Assembly (NCBI GenBank): GCA_038746835.1
Contig: JBCDKH010000003.1
Span: forward strand, 1-61,700
Length of the DNA stretch: 61,700 nucleotides
DNA from: Planctomycetota bacterium
Lineage (GTDB): Bacteria; Planctomycetota; Phycisphaerae; Tepidisphaerales; Tepidisphaeraceae
Reading direction: 5' to 3'
Of the stretch, positions 16,407 to 26,235 are shown piece after piece (the stretch's first letter is position 1; every line of letters begins with the position of its first letter). Under the pieces are notes generated by a model. The model was not told the origin of the DNA, did not search any database, and saw nothing but the letters and a program-made list of their open reading frames with translations. Both the position numbers and the translations under genes were made by a program.

Positions 16407-17585
16407 ATGTCGGCACCGGCTCCCGAACGCCCGCTGCGGGTCGACCTCGTCCAGCCAACGCTCGCCAAGTACCGCGTCGCCCCGTTTCGCGAACTCGCCC
16501 GCCGGCCGAATATCGACGTGCACGTCTGGTTCGCGAGTGATCCGGACCTGCCCAACGTCGAGCCTGACGGTTTCGCCACGTCGCCGGCATCGATTCGACG
16601 TCTGAAGGTCGGGCCGAGGACGATCAGCTACCAGCCAACGCAGTGGCATCTGGCGAAAAAAAGCGATCATCCGAGCCGCGATCGCGTGTTGATGCTGCTG
16701 TGGGACGTCCAGTACGCCACGCTCGTCCCGGCCATTCTGCGGGCGCGCCGAAACGGCATCGCGACCGTCCTCTGGGGGCACGGCTTCGGCAAGAACGAGT
16801 CGCCTGCGAAACAGCGGATTCGCGACCGCGTCGGCAAGCTGGCGGACACCGTTGTCGTCTACGACGACTGGGCAGCCGAGCGATTGATCGAACGCGGCTT
16901 CGACGCCGATCGGGTCTTCGTCGCGCGCAACACGATCGACGTGGCCGACGTGCAACAGCGGGCGGCGTCGCTCACGGCGAACGACGTCACCGCGTTCCGG
17001 CAGCGCATCGGCATCGGTGACGATCCGATGGTCCTCTTGGTCAGCCGGGCGATGCCCGACCGACGGGCCGACCTCCTGCTGGAAGCCGCGGCGACGCTGC
17101 GGGCGAGCGAACACCCAGATCTCCGTGTCGGGCTCGTCGGAGCAGGCTGGGCGGACGTCGTCGCAAGCGACCTCACCCGACTCGGCCTCGGTGGGGCGGT
17201 CATCATGCCGGGGGCCGTGTACGACGACGCGGAACTCGCGCTCTGGTTTGCGGCGTCGTCGGCCGTCGTGTTGCCCGAAGAGGCGGGACTCGCCGTCGTC
17301 GACGCGATGGCCAACGGCCGACCCGTCATCACCCACGACGAAGTCGCCGCCCACGCCCCGGAAGGGCGGAACGTTCGCCACGACATGACGGGCCTGCTGT
17401 ACCGACGCCACGACGTCGCCGACCTCGCCAACAAAACTGGTCAGCTGCTGTCAGACCCGTCGCTGGCCGACCGTTTGGGCAAGCAGGCGTTTGCCGATGT
17501 CGACAAGCGGCTTTCCGTCGCGACCATGGTCGACGGCCACGTCGCCGCGATCACCGCGGCGCGTCGGAGATGTGACGCACGTTGA
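16407..17585 (+). CDS. family 4 glycosyltransferase
   Basis: 392 residues with a GT-B layout. The N-terminal half has a nucleotide-sugar enzyme start (LVQPTLAKYRVAPFREL) and an RNGIATVLWGHGFGKNE segment resembling fucosyl- and N-acetylglucosaminyl-type GT4 proteins. The C-terminal domain has VLLVSRAMPDRRADLLLEA, IMPGAVYDDAELALWF and the donor site PEEAGLAVVDAMANGRPVI. It is divergent from the GT4 gene at 15169, with 71 bp between, and is probably part of the same glycan pathway. The sugar is not predictable. A palindrome that works as a terminator for the opposite strand follows its stop. Confidence 0.85.
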   Translation: MSAPAPERPLRVDLVQPTLAKYRVAPFRELARRPNIDVHVWFASDPDLPNVEPDGFATSPASIRRLKVGPRTISYQPTQWHLAKKSDHPSRDRVLMLLWDVQYATLVPAILRARRNGIATVLWGHGFGKNESPAKQRIRDRVGKLADTVVVYDDWAAERLIERGFDADRVFVARNTIDVADVQQRAASLTANDVTAFRQRIGIGDDPMVLLVSRAMPDRRADLLLEAAATLRASEHPDLRVGLVGAGWADVVASDLTRLGLGGAVIMPGAVYDDAELALWFAASSAVVLPEEAGLAVVDAMANGRPVITHDEVAAHAPEGRNVRHDMTGLLYRRHDVADLANKTGQLLSDPSLADRLGKQAFADVDKRLSVATMVDGHVAAITAARRRCDAR

Positions 17586-17604
17586 GTTCGAAAGAGCAGC
17601 TACC

Positions 17605-17639
17605 AAAAGAAGACACCGCCCGCGAGGGTCGGTGTCTTC
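17605..17639 (-). terminator. intrinsic terminator (10-bp stem plus U-tract), minus strand
   Basis: Arms 17609-17618 and 17630-17639 form a perfect 10-bp stem with an 11-nt loop. On the minus strand it is followed by CTTTT-type T bases (17608-17605), giving a classic intrinsic terminator. On the plus strand there is no T-tract, so it mainly serves the minus-strand transcript. Confidence 0.7.
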
Positions 17640-17709
17640 CGGAGGGGAGAAAATGCGCCGTTCGGGCTTCAACTGCCAGCTGCCGCCGGTGGAGCCCCTT
17701 TATCTTGCC
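17605..17709 (-). ncRNA. candidate ~105-nt small RNA with own promoter and terminator
   Basis: A near-perfect sigma70 promoter (TTGACA, 16-nt spacer, TATGAT) on the minus strand predicts a start near 17709, and an intrinsic terminator ends at about 17605. No ORF of note lies between. Near the 3' part is a single-stranded-looking C-rich stretch (UCUCCCCUCC), the exact complement of the strong Shine-Dalgarno of the small plus-strand ORF at 17653. It matches no RNA family I recognise (no SRP, tmRNA, RNase P or 6S hallmark). It could be an antisense regulator. Confidence 0.5.
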
Positions 17710-17793
17710 CAGCTTATCATACAGCGTCCAAGGTACCTGTCAATGCAATGTGGCGGTGGTTTGTTTATCGGGTTCGCGTCGCGCGAGACTTGA
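17653..17793 (+). CDS. possible 46-residue small protein opposite the small RNA
   Basis: ATG at 17653 is preceded by GGAGGGG (17641-17647), one of the best Shine-Dalgarno sequences in the window. The 46-codon frame encodes a moderately hydrophobic peptide with two Cys and a C-terminal GGGLFIGF segment; no family is recognised. Its ribosome-binding site and first ~19 codons lie antisense to the candidate small RNA. No promoter is evident on the plus strand, except read-through from the GT4 gene. The call is weak and rests on the Shine-Dalgarno sequence. Confidence 0.25.
   Translation: MRRSGFNCQLPPVEPLYLAQLIIQRPRYLSMQCGGGLFIGFASRET
17716..17743 (-). promoter_or_regulatory. near-consensus sigma70 promoter
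   Basis: Minus strand: TTGACA (17743-17738), 16-nt spacer, TATGAT (17721-17716). It is the best match to the canonical promoter seen in the window and would start transcription near 17709. Confidence 0.6.
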
Positions 17794-18102: not shown

Positions 18103-18549
18103 ATGACGCTGGCTGCCGTTGCTCCAGTCCTCGTTGCCGCTTCGGATCTGGCATTGGTGCGCTTGATCCGGGATGCGATTGCCAAGCCGGAGCCATTCCA
18201 TCCGGACAAGACCCATCCCGCGGACGCCGACGGTCCGGACCACCCGAGTCATCCCAGCGCGATCAACGACGGCCCAGACGCGACGCGCACCATCCAAGAG
18301 ACCAACGTCGTCTACCTCCACGACAACCAGCCGCTCGTCGTTTCGCCCGAGACGCCGATCGGACCCGCTGTGGCCCCGCTGCCAGGTCCGATGCCGGCAC
18401 CGTGGCAGCTGTTGCTCCGCGAACAAGTCTGGAATCGCCCCGTCGAGGCTCCGCCTGTGCCCGAGCTTCTGGATCATGCCCAGGCCGCCGCTCGTTACGG
18501 CTTGGCCGCCACGACGCCGAGCCAGCGTTTGGTCGACGCATTCCTCTGA
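18103..18549 (+). CDS. small protein of unknown function
   Basis: 148 residues. The N-terminus (LAAVAPVLVAASDLALVRLIRDAI) is hydrophobic to amphipathic; a Pro/His/Asp-rich middle (residues ~28-62) looks disordered; and the C-terminal half carries APWQLLLREQVWNRPVE and LLDHAQAAARYGL. No domain is recognised. The ATG is 4 nt after a hairpin. It lies upstream of hemA in the same direction with a 162-bp gap. Codon use fits the neighbours, which favours a real gene, but an unrelated longer frame also overlaps here, so it is moderately supported only. Confidence 0.5.
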   Translation: MTLAAVAPVLVAASDLALVRLIRDAIAKPEPFHPDKTHPADADGPDHPSHPSAINDGPDATRTIQETNVVYLHDNQPLVVSPETPIGPAVAPLPGPMPAPWQLLLREQVWNRPVEAPPVPELLDHAQAAARYGLAATTPSQRLVDAFL

Positions 18550-20149: not shown

Positions 20150-21358
20150 GTGTCCCCCGGACTTCTGGTTGCGATCCTGAGCGTCCTGTTCGTCACGGGA
20201 CTCGTCGTGAGCCTGGTCGCGACGCGATCGATGATCGGGTTCGCGCCAAAGATTGGGCTGGTCGACAAGCCCGGGCACCGCAAGATTCACGACGACGCCC
20301 GCCCCCTCGGCGGCGGCACCGGCATCTTCCTCGGCGTGGCGGTGCCGATGGTGCTCGGGGTCGCGTTCGTCGGCTGGATCTGGTTCCAGCACGACATCTG
20401 GCAATGGTGGAGGTTCGATGTGCCATACAGCGAGCCGCCTCTGATGCGTGGGCCGCTTGACACGTCGTGGAACCCAGACCTCGTGCGTGGGGTCGTTGAC
20501 CAACTTCCGCTTCTCCTCACCTTCCTCGCCGTCGGATTCGGCATGTACTTGCTGGGCCTCGTCGACGATCGCCGGGCACTCGGGCCGTTCGTCAAGCTCG
20601 GCGTCCAGCTCGGCCTGACGGTCGCGCTCGTGCTGCCGTTTCCGGAAGTCCGGCTGCTGACTGTCCTGGGCCTCGTGCCGAGCGTGATCATCACGACGCT
20701 CTGGATCGCGGCCGTGACGAACGCGCTTAACTTCCTCGACAACATGGACGGCCTGGCTGGCGGGGTGGCGGCGATCTCGGGGCTGGTCCTCCTGCTCACC
20801 AGCATGCTCGCCGGCCAGGTCTTCGTCCCGGCGACGCTGGCGCTCTTCGTCGGGGCGTGCGTCGGCTTCCTCTGGTGGAACTTCCCGCCACGCGTGGTGG
20901 GGGGCGGCCCGGCACGCATCTTCATGGGCGACTCCGGCTCGCTGTTCGTCGGCCTCGTCCTCGGCGTCATGACGGTCCGCACGACCTATGTCGCACCCGG
21001 TGCCGACTTTGCGTCGCTGGGCGGCGGGTGGTACGGCATCTTCGCGCCGCTGGTCGTGCTGGCCGTGCCGTTGTACGACATGACGGTCGTGAGTCTGATC
21101 CGCCTGAGCCGCGGCAAGAGCCCGTTCGTCGGCGACACGAACCATTTCAGCCATCGCCTGGTTCGCCTCGGCATGACCAAGCGAACGGCCGTCTTGTGCA
21201 TCTGGCTCGTCAGCGCCGCGACGGGCGTGGCGGCGCTCTTGCTGCCGCTGGTGACGAGTCCGTTGGCCGCGTGGCTGATCTTTCTCCAGACGCTGCTGAT
21301 CCTGGGCGTCATCCTGCTTCTCGAACGTGGCGGACGCGAGCCCACTCCGTCATCCTGA
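20150..21358 (+). CDS. WecA/MraY-family polyprenyl-phosphate sugar-1-phosphate transferase
   Basis: 402 residues with about ten membrane segments. Catalytic and family motifs are present: HRKIHDDARPLGGG, the LGLVDDRRALGP aspartates, NALNFLDNMDGLAGG, GDSGSLFVGLVLG, and DTNHFSHRLVRLG in the cytoplasmic histidine loop. It starts lipid-linked glycan synthesis by moving a sugar-1-phosphate (GlcNAc or a related sugar) from UDP to undecaprenyl phosphate. The HFSHRL loop and the exopolysaccharide context favour WecA/Rfe-type over the peptidoglycan enzyme MraY, though I cannot settle the sugar. The stop codon TGA lies inside the left arm of a long palindrome. Likely first enzyme of the polysaccharide locus that continues to 34771. 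Confidence 0.9.
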   Translation: MSPGLLVAILSVLFVTGLVVSLVATRSMIGFAPKIGLVDKPGHRKIHDDARPLGGGTGIFLGVAVPMVLGVAFVGWIWFQHDIWQWWRFDVPYSEPPLMRGPLDTSWNPDLVRGVVDQLPLLLTFLAVGFGMYLLGLVDDRRALGPFVKLGVQLGLTVALVLPFPEVRLLTVLGLVPSVIITTLWIAAVTNALNFLDNMDGLAGGVAAISGLVLLLTSMLAGQVFVPATLALFVGACVGFLWWNFPPRVVGGGPARIFMGDSGSLFVGLVLGVMTVRTTYVAPGADFASLGGGWYGIFAPLVVLAVPLYDMTVVSLIRLSRGKSPFVGDTNHFSHRLVRLGMTKRTAVLCIWLVSAATGVAALLLPLVTSPLAAWLIFLQTLLILGVILLLERGGREPTPSS

Positions 21359-21449
21359 GCGAGCGCAGCGAGTCGAAGGACCTCGCCTGAACCCGCCCCG
21401 GCAGACGCGTCCCGATGCGAGGTCCCTCGGCTGCGCTCGGGATGACGGA
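21347..21449. repeat. long inverted repeat, GTCATCC..GGATGAC type (family A, copy 1)
   Basis: The left arm begins at 21347 and the right arm ends at 21449; arms are ~33-40 nt and near-complementary. The left arm supplies the stop codon of the upstream transferase gene and the right arm ends 12 nt before the TAGAGT box of the next gene. Other copies: 43605-43700, 58333-58427 and a partial one at 60908-60950. Confidence 0.8.
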
Positions 21450-21460
21450 GGGGTTCCGGG

Positions 21461-21466
21461 TAGAGT
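21461..21466 (+). promoter_or_regulatory. TAGAGT box 9 nt before GTG
   Basis: TAGAGT is followed by 9 nt and the GTG at 21476, right after the palindrome. Spacing implies a very short leader. Confidence 0.43.
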
Positions 21467-21475
21467 CGCTCCTCC

Positions 21476-23821
21476 GTGACGCGTGCACCGACTGCCCTCG
21501 ATTGGCTGACGCGGGTGGCGTTTGTGCTCGCGGTCTCGCTGGCAGCGGGTCGGGCGATGACGTTGCTGTACCTGCGGGACACGTTCATCCCGATGCCGCT
21601 CCCGCCCGGCGAGCCGTTGCCGACGGACTTCCGCGGTCCCGGCGTCCGGGTGATCCTCGACGCGCTGTGCCTGTTGCCACTGTTGCTCGTGCTGCTGCGG
21701 CGGGCGATCGACGCGACGTACCGGCCGGCGATGTTTGGCGGACTCGCGTTTCTGATGGGTCTGTCGCTCTGGAGCTTTGCGAGTCTGCTCTGGGCCGACG
21801 ATCCGTTCGCCGCGGCCGTCGAGGGTTCGACGTGGATCGCGGCGGCAGCGTTGGCCTGGGCGATCGCGGCGACGACGCGCGGCTGGGTTGACCTGCGACT
21901 GGCCTTCGGCCTGGCCGTCGGCGTGCTCGCCGCCAACGTCATCGGCGGGCTCTTCTTCCTGGCGATCGAGCTGCCCGAGACGCTGCGGCAGGTCGAAGAA
22001 GACACCGCCGGCATCCTGCGTGGCCAGAACATCGAGCCCGGCAGCTTTGCGGCAGAGCAGTTTCTGGGCCGATTGCGGCGGGGCGAGTACGCGGGCTTCA
22101 ACGCCTCGATCAACAGCTACGCCGGGGCGATCGCATCCCTGATGCTGGTCGCGATCGGGCTGGCCTGGTCGTCGCTGCGATCCGATTGCCCGACGTGGCG
22201 CCACTTCGGCATCGTCGTCGGGCTCGTGTTCTTCGGCTGCATCATCGCGGGCGTCGGCGAACGGACGGGCCAGTCGACTGCGTGGATCCTCGTCGGCCTG
22301 GGCACCGCGCTCGCCGCCGTCGGGGCGGGCGTCGCGATCCAGAAGAACCCGACGAAGCTGGCGACGCTCGTCGTTCTCGTCCTGCCGGCGGCGACGTACC
22401 TCATGCTGCGGACCCAGGCCCGGGCGGCAATCGCAGCGTTCGTGCTCGTCCTCGGCGTGTTGGCGCTCGCGTGGGTCCTTCGGAGCAAGCTGCCGAGGTG
22501 GACCGGCGTCGGCATCGTCGGGCTGGTGCTGCTCGGTTTCGTCGGCCTGCTCGGCTACGGGCTCGCGACGGGCTCGATGCCGCACGTGTCGCTGCAGTTC
22601 CGGCTCTACTACTGGCTCGGAGCACTAGGCGTCACCGGCGACCATCCGCTGCTGGGCGTCGGGTTCTCCAGCTTCAGCGACGCGTACCTGCTCCACCGCG
22701 TGCCCAGCGCGGCGGAGGAGGTTCGGGACCCGCACAACCTGCCACTGCGTTTGCTGTCGGAATTGGGTCTGGTCGGGTTGGCGCTCGGGTTGGCAACGCT
22801 GATCCTGATTGCTTGGAGCCTTGCCCGACCAGCACATGACGCCGAAGCGGAAGCTTCGGGTTCGGGGGATTCGGGACCCTCAGAACCCGAAGCTTCCGCT
22901 TCGGCGTCGTCGGTCTCTCCGCGCTCGGTCGTCGTGCCCGCAGCCCTCGCGTCGCTGGTCCCGGTGGTCGCGACGATCGACTTCACTGCGGACGTCGGTT
23001 TCGTCGGACTCGAGGTGCTGCAGGGCATCGTCGTCGCGTTGGCCGTCGTCGCGGGAACGCTGCTCGTGGTCGCACGGTCGGCCGAACTCGAAGAGGCGGA
23101 CACCTCACCTGCCCCGGCGGCGTGTGCGGCGGGATTGGCGATGCTGGCGATGCTGCTCGTGCAGTCGATGGTTGCCGTCGTCGCCTTCTCGCCGGCGGTG
23201 CTGTTTGGCGTTGCGCTGGTCACCGGCGTGCTGCTTGGGACACGCCGGGCTGTCGGGTCGCGCCGACTAGTGTGGACAAGCTTCGGCCTCGCCGTGGTCG
23301 CGACGGGCGTCTTTGTCGGCGGGTTCGTCGTGCCGATGGTGCAAGCCGAGCGGCTGGCGTTGCGGGCGGACACGCTGGTCCGACAAGGCGATCTGGACCT
23401 GGCTCAGCAGACCTACGCCGACGCCGCCGATGCCTCGCCATTGCCGAACGACCACTATCACGATCGTCGCGGCAGGGCGTTGCTGCTGATGAACGAGCCC
23501 TCCCTCGCCGAAGCCGCGTTCCGGCACGCGGCGGAGATCCGTCTGACGTCGCCCAAGTACGACAACATCCTCGCCGGCCTGGCCGAGCGGCGGGGCGATC
23601 GCGACGAGCAGATCGCCCGGCTGCGTGCCACCATCGCCAAGAACCCGACCGAGATCGCCTTCCGACTGCGCCTGGCCGCGGCATTGGGCGAGTCGACCGA
23701 CGAGGGCCGAGTGCAGATCGCCGAGACCCTCCGGCTCAACGACGCCTTCGCTCCCGACGAGCCCGAGCGGCTGCCGGTGGAAGAAGTCGAGCGGCTCCGG
23801 ACGTTGGCAGAGTCGCCATAG
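21476..23821 (+). CDS. O-antigen ligase/polymerase-like (Wzy_C) membrane protein with TPR tail
   Basis: 781 residues. More than ten membrane segments; the family signature is around residues 365-430: RLYYWLGALGVTGDHPLLGVGFSSF, then a DPHNLPLRLLSELGLVGLALG segment typical of the Wzy_C periplasmic loop. Residues 456-477 are encoded by a palindromic repeat and form a Ser/Glu/Ala-rich insert between two membrane helices. After the last helix (~630) a TPR-like helical domain follows. Proteins of this family polymerise or ligate lipid-linked repeats in the periplasm; the neighbourhood favours exopolysaccharide polymerisation. It starts at GTG. Confidence 0.85.
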   Translation: MTRAPTALDWLTRVAFVLAVSLAAGRAMTLLYLRDTFIPMPLPPGEPLPTDFRGPGVRVILDALCLLPLLLVLLRRAIDATYRPAMFGGLAFLMGLSLWSFASLLWADDPFAAAVEGSTWIAAAALAWAIAATTRGWVDLRLAFGLAVGVLAANVIGGLFFLAIELPETLRQVEEDTAGILRGQNIEPGSFAAEQFLGRLRRGEYAGFNASINSYAGAIASLMLVAIGLAWSSLRSDCPTWRHFGIVVGLVFFGCIIAGVGERTGQSTAWILVGLGTALAAVGAGVAIQKNPTKLATLVVLVLPAATYLMLRTQARAAIAAFVLVLGVLALAWVLRSKLPRWTGVGIVGLVLLGFVGLLGYGLATGSMPHVSLQFRLYYWLGALGVTGDHPLLGVGFSSFSDAYLLHRVPSAAEEVRDPHNLPLRLLSELGLVGLALGLATLILIAWSLARPAHDAEAEASGSGDSGPSEPEASASASSVSPRSVVVPAALASLVPVVATIDFTADVGFVGLEVLQGIVVALAVVAGTLLVVARSAELEEADTSPAPAACAAGLAMLAMLLVQSMVAVVAFSPAVLFGVALVTGVLLGTRRAVGSRRLVWTSFGLAVVATGVFVGGFVVPMVQAERLALRADTLVRQGDLDLAQQTYADAADASPLPNDHYHDRRGRALLLMNEPSLAEAAFRHAAEIRLTSPKYDNILAGLAERRGDRDEQIARLRATIAKNPTEIAFRLRLAAALGESTDEGRVQIAETLRLNDAFAPDEPERLPVEEVERLRTLAESP
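22841..22906. repeat. palindrome family B, copy 1, in frame in a coding region
   Basis: Left arm 22841-22863 and right arm 22883-22906 are complementary (GAAGCGGAAGCTTCGGGTTC type). It lies inside the ligase gene and keeps the frame open, encoding a low-complexity EAEASGSG..EPEASASA stretch. A second copy is at 42341-42395. Confidence 0.75.
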
Positions 23822-24870: not shown

Positions 24871-26235
24871 ATGTCTACGACGCCTTCACCTCGACTGGCC
24901 TATTCGACGGACGCCAAACCGGCGACGGACGAGCCGCGCGACCCGTGGCTGGGCATTACCCAGACCGCCTGGACGTGCATCGGCGTCGTCTTCGCCCTGA
25001 TGGTCCTGCTCTATTGGCGAAACCTGGATCGCCTGTGGGACAAGACCAATCCGATCTACGGCCAGGCCGCCGACAATTGGTCGCACTCCGTCCTCGTCCC
25101 GATCATCGGGCTCGGCTACCTGTGGCTCAATCGTGAAGGTCTGCGGGCCACGAAAAGTGAGCCGGTGATGCCGACGACGCGCGTTCCGCTGCTGCTCGGC
25201 GGCGGGGTGGCGCTGGGCTTCCTGTGCTCGGCGACGTGGCTCTTCTCGCGAGCGGCGGGGGGCTTGGTCGAACTGCAGCCGTTCCTGCTTCCCGCGGCGG
25301 GTGTGTTCATCGGACTCGCGCTCGTCGAAGCGATCGTCACGCTGGCCAACGTCGGAGCGGCACGCTTCGGGATCGTTCGACTCACGGGCGGTCTCGCGTT
25401 CCTGCTCACGGGCATCTCCGGACAAGTGCTCGCCCAGACAGGCGTGCTGGAGTCGACCGTCGGCTCCAACCTCGCCGGCTACCTCGGCCCGCTCTTCTTC
25501 GCCACCGCCTTCCTCGGCCTGCTCGCACTGCTGCTCGACTGGGGCCTGGGATGCCTCATCGCCGGCGTCCTCCTCAGCGGCTATGGCATCTGGCCGGGCC
25601 AGAACGACTACCTCAAGGACCTCGGCATGGTCCTGGCGACCTTCGGGGCCGTTCTGACGCTGGCCGGTTGGGGCGTCATGAAGTACGCCTGGTTCCCGAT
25701 CGCCTTCCTGGTCTTCGCCTTGCCCTGGCCGGGATTGGTCTACAGCAAGGTGGCGCTGCCGCTGCAGTTCCTGGCTGCCAAGGTTGCAGTCGTCGTGATG
25801 AACATCGCCCAGGTCGACACCTACGTCGAGGGCACCAAGATCATCATCGAACGCGCCGGCGGCGAGCGGGTGCTCAACGTGGCCGAGGCGTGCGCGGGCA
25901 TGAGGTCGCTGATGACGTTCCTCACCGCCGGCGGGGCGATCGCGTTCCTGTTCGGCCAGCGTCCGATGTGGCAGCGGCTGCTCATCGTCGCCAGTGCCGT
26001 GCCGATCGCGATTCTGATGAACGTCGCCCGCGTCAGCGGCCAGGGCCTGCTCGACGTCTATGTCAGCGAGGACTTTTCCAGCGGCTTCGCCCACTACTTC
26101 GCCGGGCTGGTCATGCTGATCCCGGCCTTTTTCCTGCTGTTGGGTGTGGTGTGGGTCGTCGACAACCTGTTCGTCGAAGTCGACGAGGACGAAGACGAGC
26201 CCTCGACGCCCGCGACGACTCCGGCTCCTGCCTGA
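24871..26235 (+). CDS. exosortase (planctomycete type, extended)
   Basis: 454 residues, polytopic. Exosortases are transpeptidase-like membrane proteases that cut sorting tails such as PEP-CTERM. The catalytic set is present: Cys341 in AEACAGMRSLMTF, Arg387 in ILMNVARVSG and His408 in SGFAHYFAGL. DNWSHSVLVPIIGLGYLW (residues 68-85) matches the N-terminal family motif. Between it and the core there is an extra membrane region (about 110-250), making it longer than typical ~300-residue members. ATG at 24871 has GGGAG close upstream; an open frame reaching 24571 overlaps rplT and is not used. EpsI follows 28 bp downstream. No PEP-CTERM substrate is seen in the window. Confidence 0.88.
   Translation: MSTTPSPRLAYSTDAKPATDEPRDPWLGITQTAWTCIGVVFALMVLLYWRNLDRLWDKTNPIYGQAADNWSHSVLVPIIGLGYLWLNREGLRATKSEPVMPTTRVPLLLGGGVALGFLCSATWLFSRAAGGLVELQPFLLPAAGVFIGLALVEAIVTLANVGAARFGIVRLTGGLAFLLTGISGQVLAQTGVLESTVGSNLAGYLGPLFFATAFLGLLALLLDWGLGCLIAGVLLSGYGIWPGQNDYLKDLGMVLATFGAVLTLAGWGVMKYAWFPIAFLVFALPWPGLVYSKVALPLQFLAAKVAVVVMNIAQVDTYVEGTKIIIERAGGERVLNVAEACAGMRSLMTFLTAGGAIAFLFGQRPMWQRLLIVASAVPIAILMNVARVSGQGLLDVYVSEDFSSGFAHYFAGLVMLIPAFFLLLGVVWVVDNLFVEVDEDEDEPSTPATTPAPA

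Follow-up and report, generated by a model that had tools for sequence, protein, structure and literature searches.

A small RNA (sRNA) gene lies on the minus strand of the window, which is the whole 61,700-nt stretch of planctomycete DNA analyzed here, and we are nearly certain that it represents a real, conserved sRNA family, i.e., a genuine non-coding RNA gene. The family, which apparently has not been described before, carries an almost invariant C-rich stretch next to its terminator, and the reading we favor, with a probability of roughly 0.6, is that the RNA acts in trans by pairing with Shine-Dalgarno regions and blocking ribosome loading. Computation established the structure of the gene, its conservation and covariation, its spread across the class Phycisphaerae and the lack of detectable Hfq in that class, and from these features we infer the expression, pairing, targets and physiological role of the sRNA.

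Regulatory RNA in Planctomycetes is nearly a blank, and a 2022 survey counted 8 distinct sRNAs for the entire Planctomycetes-Verrucomicrobia-Chlamydiae group (PMC9029176). A class-wide sRNA whose anti-Shine-Dalgarno seed stays fixed, in bacteria that lack detectable Hfq, would, if true, provide a first handle on RNA-based regulation in planctomycetes. It would also add a further, apparently independent case in which ribosome-binding sites are blocked in a similar manner, beside Yfr1, the C-rich sRNAs of Firmicutes and a rhizobial family.

Architecture of the locus

The locus comprises the following features.

17738-17743, minus strand: -35 box TTGACA; TTGAC is kept in most same-family loci
17716-17721, minus strand: -10 box TATGAT; relatives have TAGGAT, TAAGAT or TATAGT
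17605-17709, minus strand: predicted small RNA of ~105 nt, with its start placed ~7 nt past the -10 box
17641-17655, minus strand: conserved unpaired seed CAUUUUCUCCCCUCC, fully complementary to a Shine-Dalgarno with its 7-nt spacer and AUG (GGAGGGGAGAAAAUG)
17609-17639, minus strand: terminator stem-loop of 10 bp, with compensatory changes among relatives
17605-17608, minus strand: terminator U-tract UUUU; most relatives have a longer tract
17653-17793, plus strand: opposing 46-codon frame, judged not to be a gene and unconserved in relatives

An earlier note on this DNA had singled out the minus-strand promoter, and we found it at the same place: TTGACA, a 16-nt spacer and TATGAT (17743-17716) score 11/12 as a sigma70-type site, which is the only one of at least 10/12 in the whole window, with 0.1 sites of 11/12 expected per mono-shuffled window. 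The perfect intrinsic terminator and the ~105-nt predicted RNA that the note described were likewise verified in the sequence. The stem, which starts ~75 nt downstream of the -10 box, consists of GAAGACACCG (17639-17630) and CGGTGTCTTC (17618-17609) around an 11-nt loop and is followed by UUUU (17608-17605); our automated terminator scan accepts loops of at most 8 nt and therefore did not list it. The terminator hairpin is present in both the minimum-energy and the centroid folds of the RNA, and the folding energy of the whole RNA is unexceptional (z = -1.3). Two covariance models match the locus, R1 at 17602-17660 (1.2e-22) and R2 at 17603-17657 (6.2e-14).

The plus strand holds the elements previously reported for it, namely GGAGGGG (17641-17647), ATG (17653-17655) and 46 codons up to a stop, and these codons form the end of an open frame of 100 codons that begins at 17491. 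As had been claimed, the RNA perfectly complements the Shine-Dalgarno region, but the 10 nt assigned to this match were too few, as the conserved complement extends over CAUUUUCUCCCCUCC (17655-17641).

Conservation within the window's family

A blastn search of 60 related genomes with the locus as query showed that 20 of the 25 other genomes of the same family share a core, up to 65 nt long (17669-17605). All same-family copies proceed from GCGCAUUUUCUCCCCUCCGGA to a stem-loop and then a U-tract, and UUUUCUCCCCUCCGGA is identical in 20 of the 21 same-family loci, the exception being without one C. Across these 21 loci the loop of the terminator drifts and its stem covaries, while the seed is constant. 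Every one of the 220 pair cells in the stem is a standard pair (220/220), double changes occur in 5 of the 10 pairs, and the covariation score was reached by none of 500 shuffles. The earlier note had looked to relatives for covariation of the hairpin and for conservation of the peptide frame, of which the first holds and the second does not, as the frame is unconserved in 21 relatives.

Sequence upstream of the seed is also patterned. Promoter-like elements of the form TTGAC...TA end 36-56 nt upstream of CCCC in 16 of 21 same-family loci, with a mean score of 9.6 versus 4.9 in DNA farther upstream; in the window copy this distance is 68 nt. Thus the promoter and terminator on whose conservation in close relatives the note had staked its proposal are retained: the terminator covaries, and most same-family loci have a TTGAC/TA-rich promoter with comparable spacing. 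A hairpin of at least 4 bp directly 5' of the seed is found in 18 of 21 loci (1.9 expected with shuffled upstream DNA), and the window copy has a longer 5' part without a clean 5' hairpin. Outside the window's family no clear promoter consensus emerged. The sRNA is a stand-alone gene with promoter and terminator, the promoter being clear only in the window's family.

Two repeat structures were seen during these comparisons. In one same-family genome, locus L249 (G013:C5, about 25519-25603) is a tandem array of a ~37-nt unit, each with UUUCUCCCCUCC, at a contig edge. In genome G017, 11 places match positions 153-173 of the query, and a hairpin element repeated in that genome looks like the second half of the terminator hairpin.

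Distribution across the class

Covariance model R1 reached other families, and the second model, R2, was used for the class-wide count. At E<=1e-6, R2 matched 179 of 347 sampled Phycisphaerae genomes, which represent 131 of 248 genera and 16 families; the large searches applied strict filters at the cost of weak matches, and their E-values are rough. About half of the sampled class genomes gave no match at that threshold, which may reflect real loss or divergence. Many genomes of families f3, f12, f14 and f19 contain at least two copies.

In a draw of 392 genomes from the phylum, three outside the class matched at E<=1e-5, none of them with the seed, and none of ~350 genomes of other planctomycete classes had the RNA plus the motif. 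The out-of-class matches that we inspected in phylum-wide searches were ordinary terminators, a tRNA or chance. A pattern scan of an 84,980-species collection returned at least 80 records, and the titles of all those listed name planctomycetes, for the most part Phycisphaerae, Phycisphaerales or Sedimentisphaerales.

The terminator is present in all members of the class-wide set, and among 63 diverse members its stem shows double changes in 11 of 12 pairs, with 96.8% of cells paired and a score reached by 0 of 500 shuffles. The unpaired stretch before the terminator, which ends in UUUCCCCUCC or UCUCCCCUCC, hardly varies class-wide, and in other families it reads UUUUCUCCCCUCCGG, GGCUUCUUUCCCCUCCGG or GCUUUUCCCCUCCGG. 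Because the models and the search pattern contain the seed, they partly select for its constancy in families other than the window's; fairer evidence comes from the DNA-search set and from members with unrelated stems. Members of the latter kind keep the seed beside unrelated stem sequence in GGACGGUCGG (L070, L071), GGUAGGCGA (L103, L105) and GCCCCGUUAG (L307, L308), and the second copy in one genome (L280, G090:C3:5996-6060) does the same. In the diverged sRNA-like copies L280, L278 (f23), L276 (f18), and L307 and L308 (f15), the C-rich seed adjoins an unrelated terminator, which suggests that the family is broader than the models show.

The seed and its proposed mode of action

The anti-Shine-Dalgarno of 16S rRNA reads CCUCC. 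The seed stretch of the sRNA complements a strong Shine-Dalgarno, and in the window's family CAUUUUCUCCCCUCC complements the Shine-Dalgarno, the spacer and the AUG together; the sRNA therefore probably turns off translation of other genes. In the mechanism we propose, transcription would begin at the sRNA's own sigma70-type promoter and stop at the intrinsic terminator, and the RNA would expose, before the terminator stem, an unpaired stretch that copies and extends the ribosomal anti-Shine-Dalgarno. This seed would base-pair with the purine-rich Shine-Dalgarno region of target mRNAs and keep ribosomes off, with the result that those mRNAs would be silenced or destabilized. Such action would proceed without Hfq, which was not detected in 61 class genomes in searches that detected the controls.

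In the UUUUCUCCCC and GCUUUUCCCC types, the seed is predicted to be more open than it is when the 5' part is shuffled. The window copy has a partly accessible seed by prediction (0.54), and accessibility falls further in the GGCUUCUUU type with its longer 5' part. Of 47 members of the GGCUUCUUU type (ending GGCUUCUUUCCCC, e.g., L094, L120, L182 and L186), 25 carry GGAGG at ~45-60 nt 5' of the seed, where shuffling predicts 6.2, and the upstream GGAGG occurs in 0 of 71 members of the UUUUCUCCCC types. Based on this arrangement, the GGAGG of the GGCUUCUUU type could pair with the CCUCC of the same RNA and lock the seed. A bolder proposal, which we regard as doubtful, is that a core sRNA in a class with no detectable Hfq serves as a global brake on mRNAs with strong Shine-Dalgarno sequences, to which one lineage has added the GGAGG seed lock.

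Relationship to known small RNAs

Rfam 15 contains no family that scores above its gathering threshold at the RNA, in the window or at 20 member loci. The sole gathering-score match across the window and member loci was one unrelated tRNA, and sub-threshold matches (Cis52_sRNA, SNORA12, MIR5998 and others) look like chance. The RNA had no match to Yfr1 in Rfam, and the RsaE model scored 15.9 on it versus a cut-off of 79. A literature search, with most subscription journals outside its scope, found no description of the RNA.

Judged by its sequence, the RNA is a member of none of three groups that it resembles in kind. The first is cyanobacterial Yfr1, a class-wide sRNA of 54-69 nt in which two stem-loops surround the unpaired, ultraconserved, pyrimidine-rich ACUCCUCACAC and the 3' hairpin with its U-tail is the terminator (PMC2190773). 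Both RNAs are short and class-wide and have an unpaired conserved pyrimidine-rich stretch and a 3' terminator hairpin, and 18 of the 21 same-family loci show the two-hairpin layout, although the window copy lacks a clean 5' hairpin. However, the Phycisphaerae motif is UUUUCUCCCCUCC rather than the undecanucleotide ACUCCUCACAC, and the RNA belongs to another phylum, has a longer 5' part and occurs in several copies in some families. The second group comprises RoxS/RsaE, FsrA and LhrC of Firmicutes, whose C-rich regions pair near the ribosome-binding site of mRNAs, largely free of Hfq (PMC8216469, PMC4132741). The Phycisphaerae RNA shares with them a C-rich region aimed, by prediction, near ribosome-binding sites without Hfq, whereas they have several such regions per RNA and it has one, directly at the terminator; no sequence relationship was detected. 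The third group is rhizobial SmelA075/SmelA099, in which a perfect anti-Shine-Dalgarno CCUCCUCCC is kept while the stems diverge and several copies occur per genome (PMC3927594). A constant anti-Shine-Dalgarno motif despite diverging stems and multiple copies per genome are common to both families, but the rhizobial motif lies in two to four hairpin loops, whereas the Phycisphaerae motif is single, unpaired and adjoins the terminator.

Targets and alternative explanations

Searches for mRNA targets returned no recurrent gene among exact extended matches. The exact 11-mer GAGGGGAGAAA occurs in its own genome only at the sRNA locus, and extended exact searches with it yielded no gene in common. 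Sites of the form GGAGGGG-N-ATG in the same genome include few convincing genes and no shared gene, and GGAGGGGARA-N-ATG across 61 genomes likewise gave no shared gene. The latter pattern is ~5x commoner than its reversed control, an excess for which Shine-Dalgarno use alone accounts, and several matches to the target patterns turned out to be the complement of the sRNA itself or diverged copies of it. In genome G029, GAGGGGAGAAA is located at bases 132-142 of nine contigs, at the same distance from the contig start, and these contig-end repeats may stem from a mobile element or from the assembly.

In line with the lack of a common mRNA target, the conserved stretch might dock a protein or a G-rich RNA that it sponges, instead of pairing with mRNA Shine-Dalgarno regions. 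There are precedents for such partnerships, as the motifs of Yfr1 and Yfr2 are nearly complementary (PMC6778093) and RosA sponges RoxS (PMC8216469). The RNA-binding regulator CsrA is also widespread in the class, with 37 of 41 genomes having it. However, CsrA recognizes GGA, not CCUCC, the motif matches an extended anti-Shine-Dalgarno sequence exactly, and no partner is known, and we consider a docking or sponge function unlikely.

Genomic position raises another explanation, in which the RNA is a 3'-UTR element or specialized terminator of the upstream gene and its C-rich stretch protects, processes or terminates the mRNA with no action in trans. Many copies do follow a conserved gene that has the same orientation, which is ribonucleotide reductase in 38 loci and an acyltransferase in most loci of the window's family; convergent genes are secA in 19 loci and a HIT-family gene in the window's family. 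However, the neighbor differs among families, and the window copy has no close same-strand gene upstream. A mere terminator would not need a fixed unpaired stretch, and the changing neighbors, together with the promoter that the RNA has to itself in the window's family, favor an independent gene. We therefore view this explanation as improbable overall, and in some bacterial families the RNA may have arisen from a 3' UTR.

The type I toxin-antitoxin pair that the earlier note had seen in the layout, with the RNA as cis-antisense antitoxin of a small plus-strand toxin, fits the overlap geometry at the window locus only and is rejected as highly implausible because the opposing frame is conserved in neither length nor sequence: from the conserved ATG position it runs for 46, 31, 10, 3, 32, 5, 109, 5, 30, 33... 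codons (3 to 109 in 21 relatives) with no shared peptide sequence beyond MRR/MRH/MRG, the ATG is absent at that position in most other families, only the start of the frame overlaps the conserved RNA, and the plus-strand peptide is unlike a typical short hydrophobic toxin. The note's other suggestion fits better, namely a regulatory RNA that stands alone and pairs with G-rich ribosome-binding sites at other loci.

In the window, the neighbors of the sRNA gene are a convergent glycosyltransferase gene and, past a small ORF, a glutamyl-tRNA reductase gene. An attenuator of the downstream gene is ruled out there because the gene past the terminator is convergent. The ORF ahead of the glutamyl-tRNA reductase gene (148 codons, 18103-18549, plus strand) has no Pfam match. 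Farther along, at 21309-21488, overlapping ORF fragments on both strands read VILSERSESKD, HPERAQRVEG and SLGCARDDG, which suggests a dispersed repeat of the kind often misread as short proteins.
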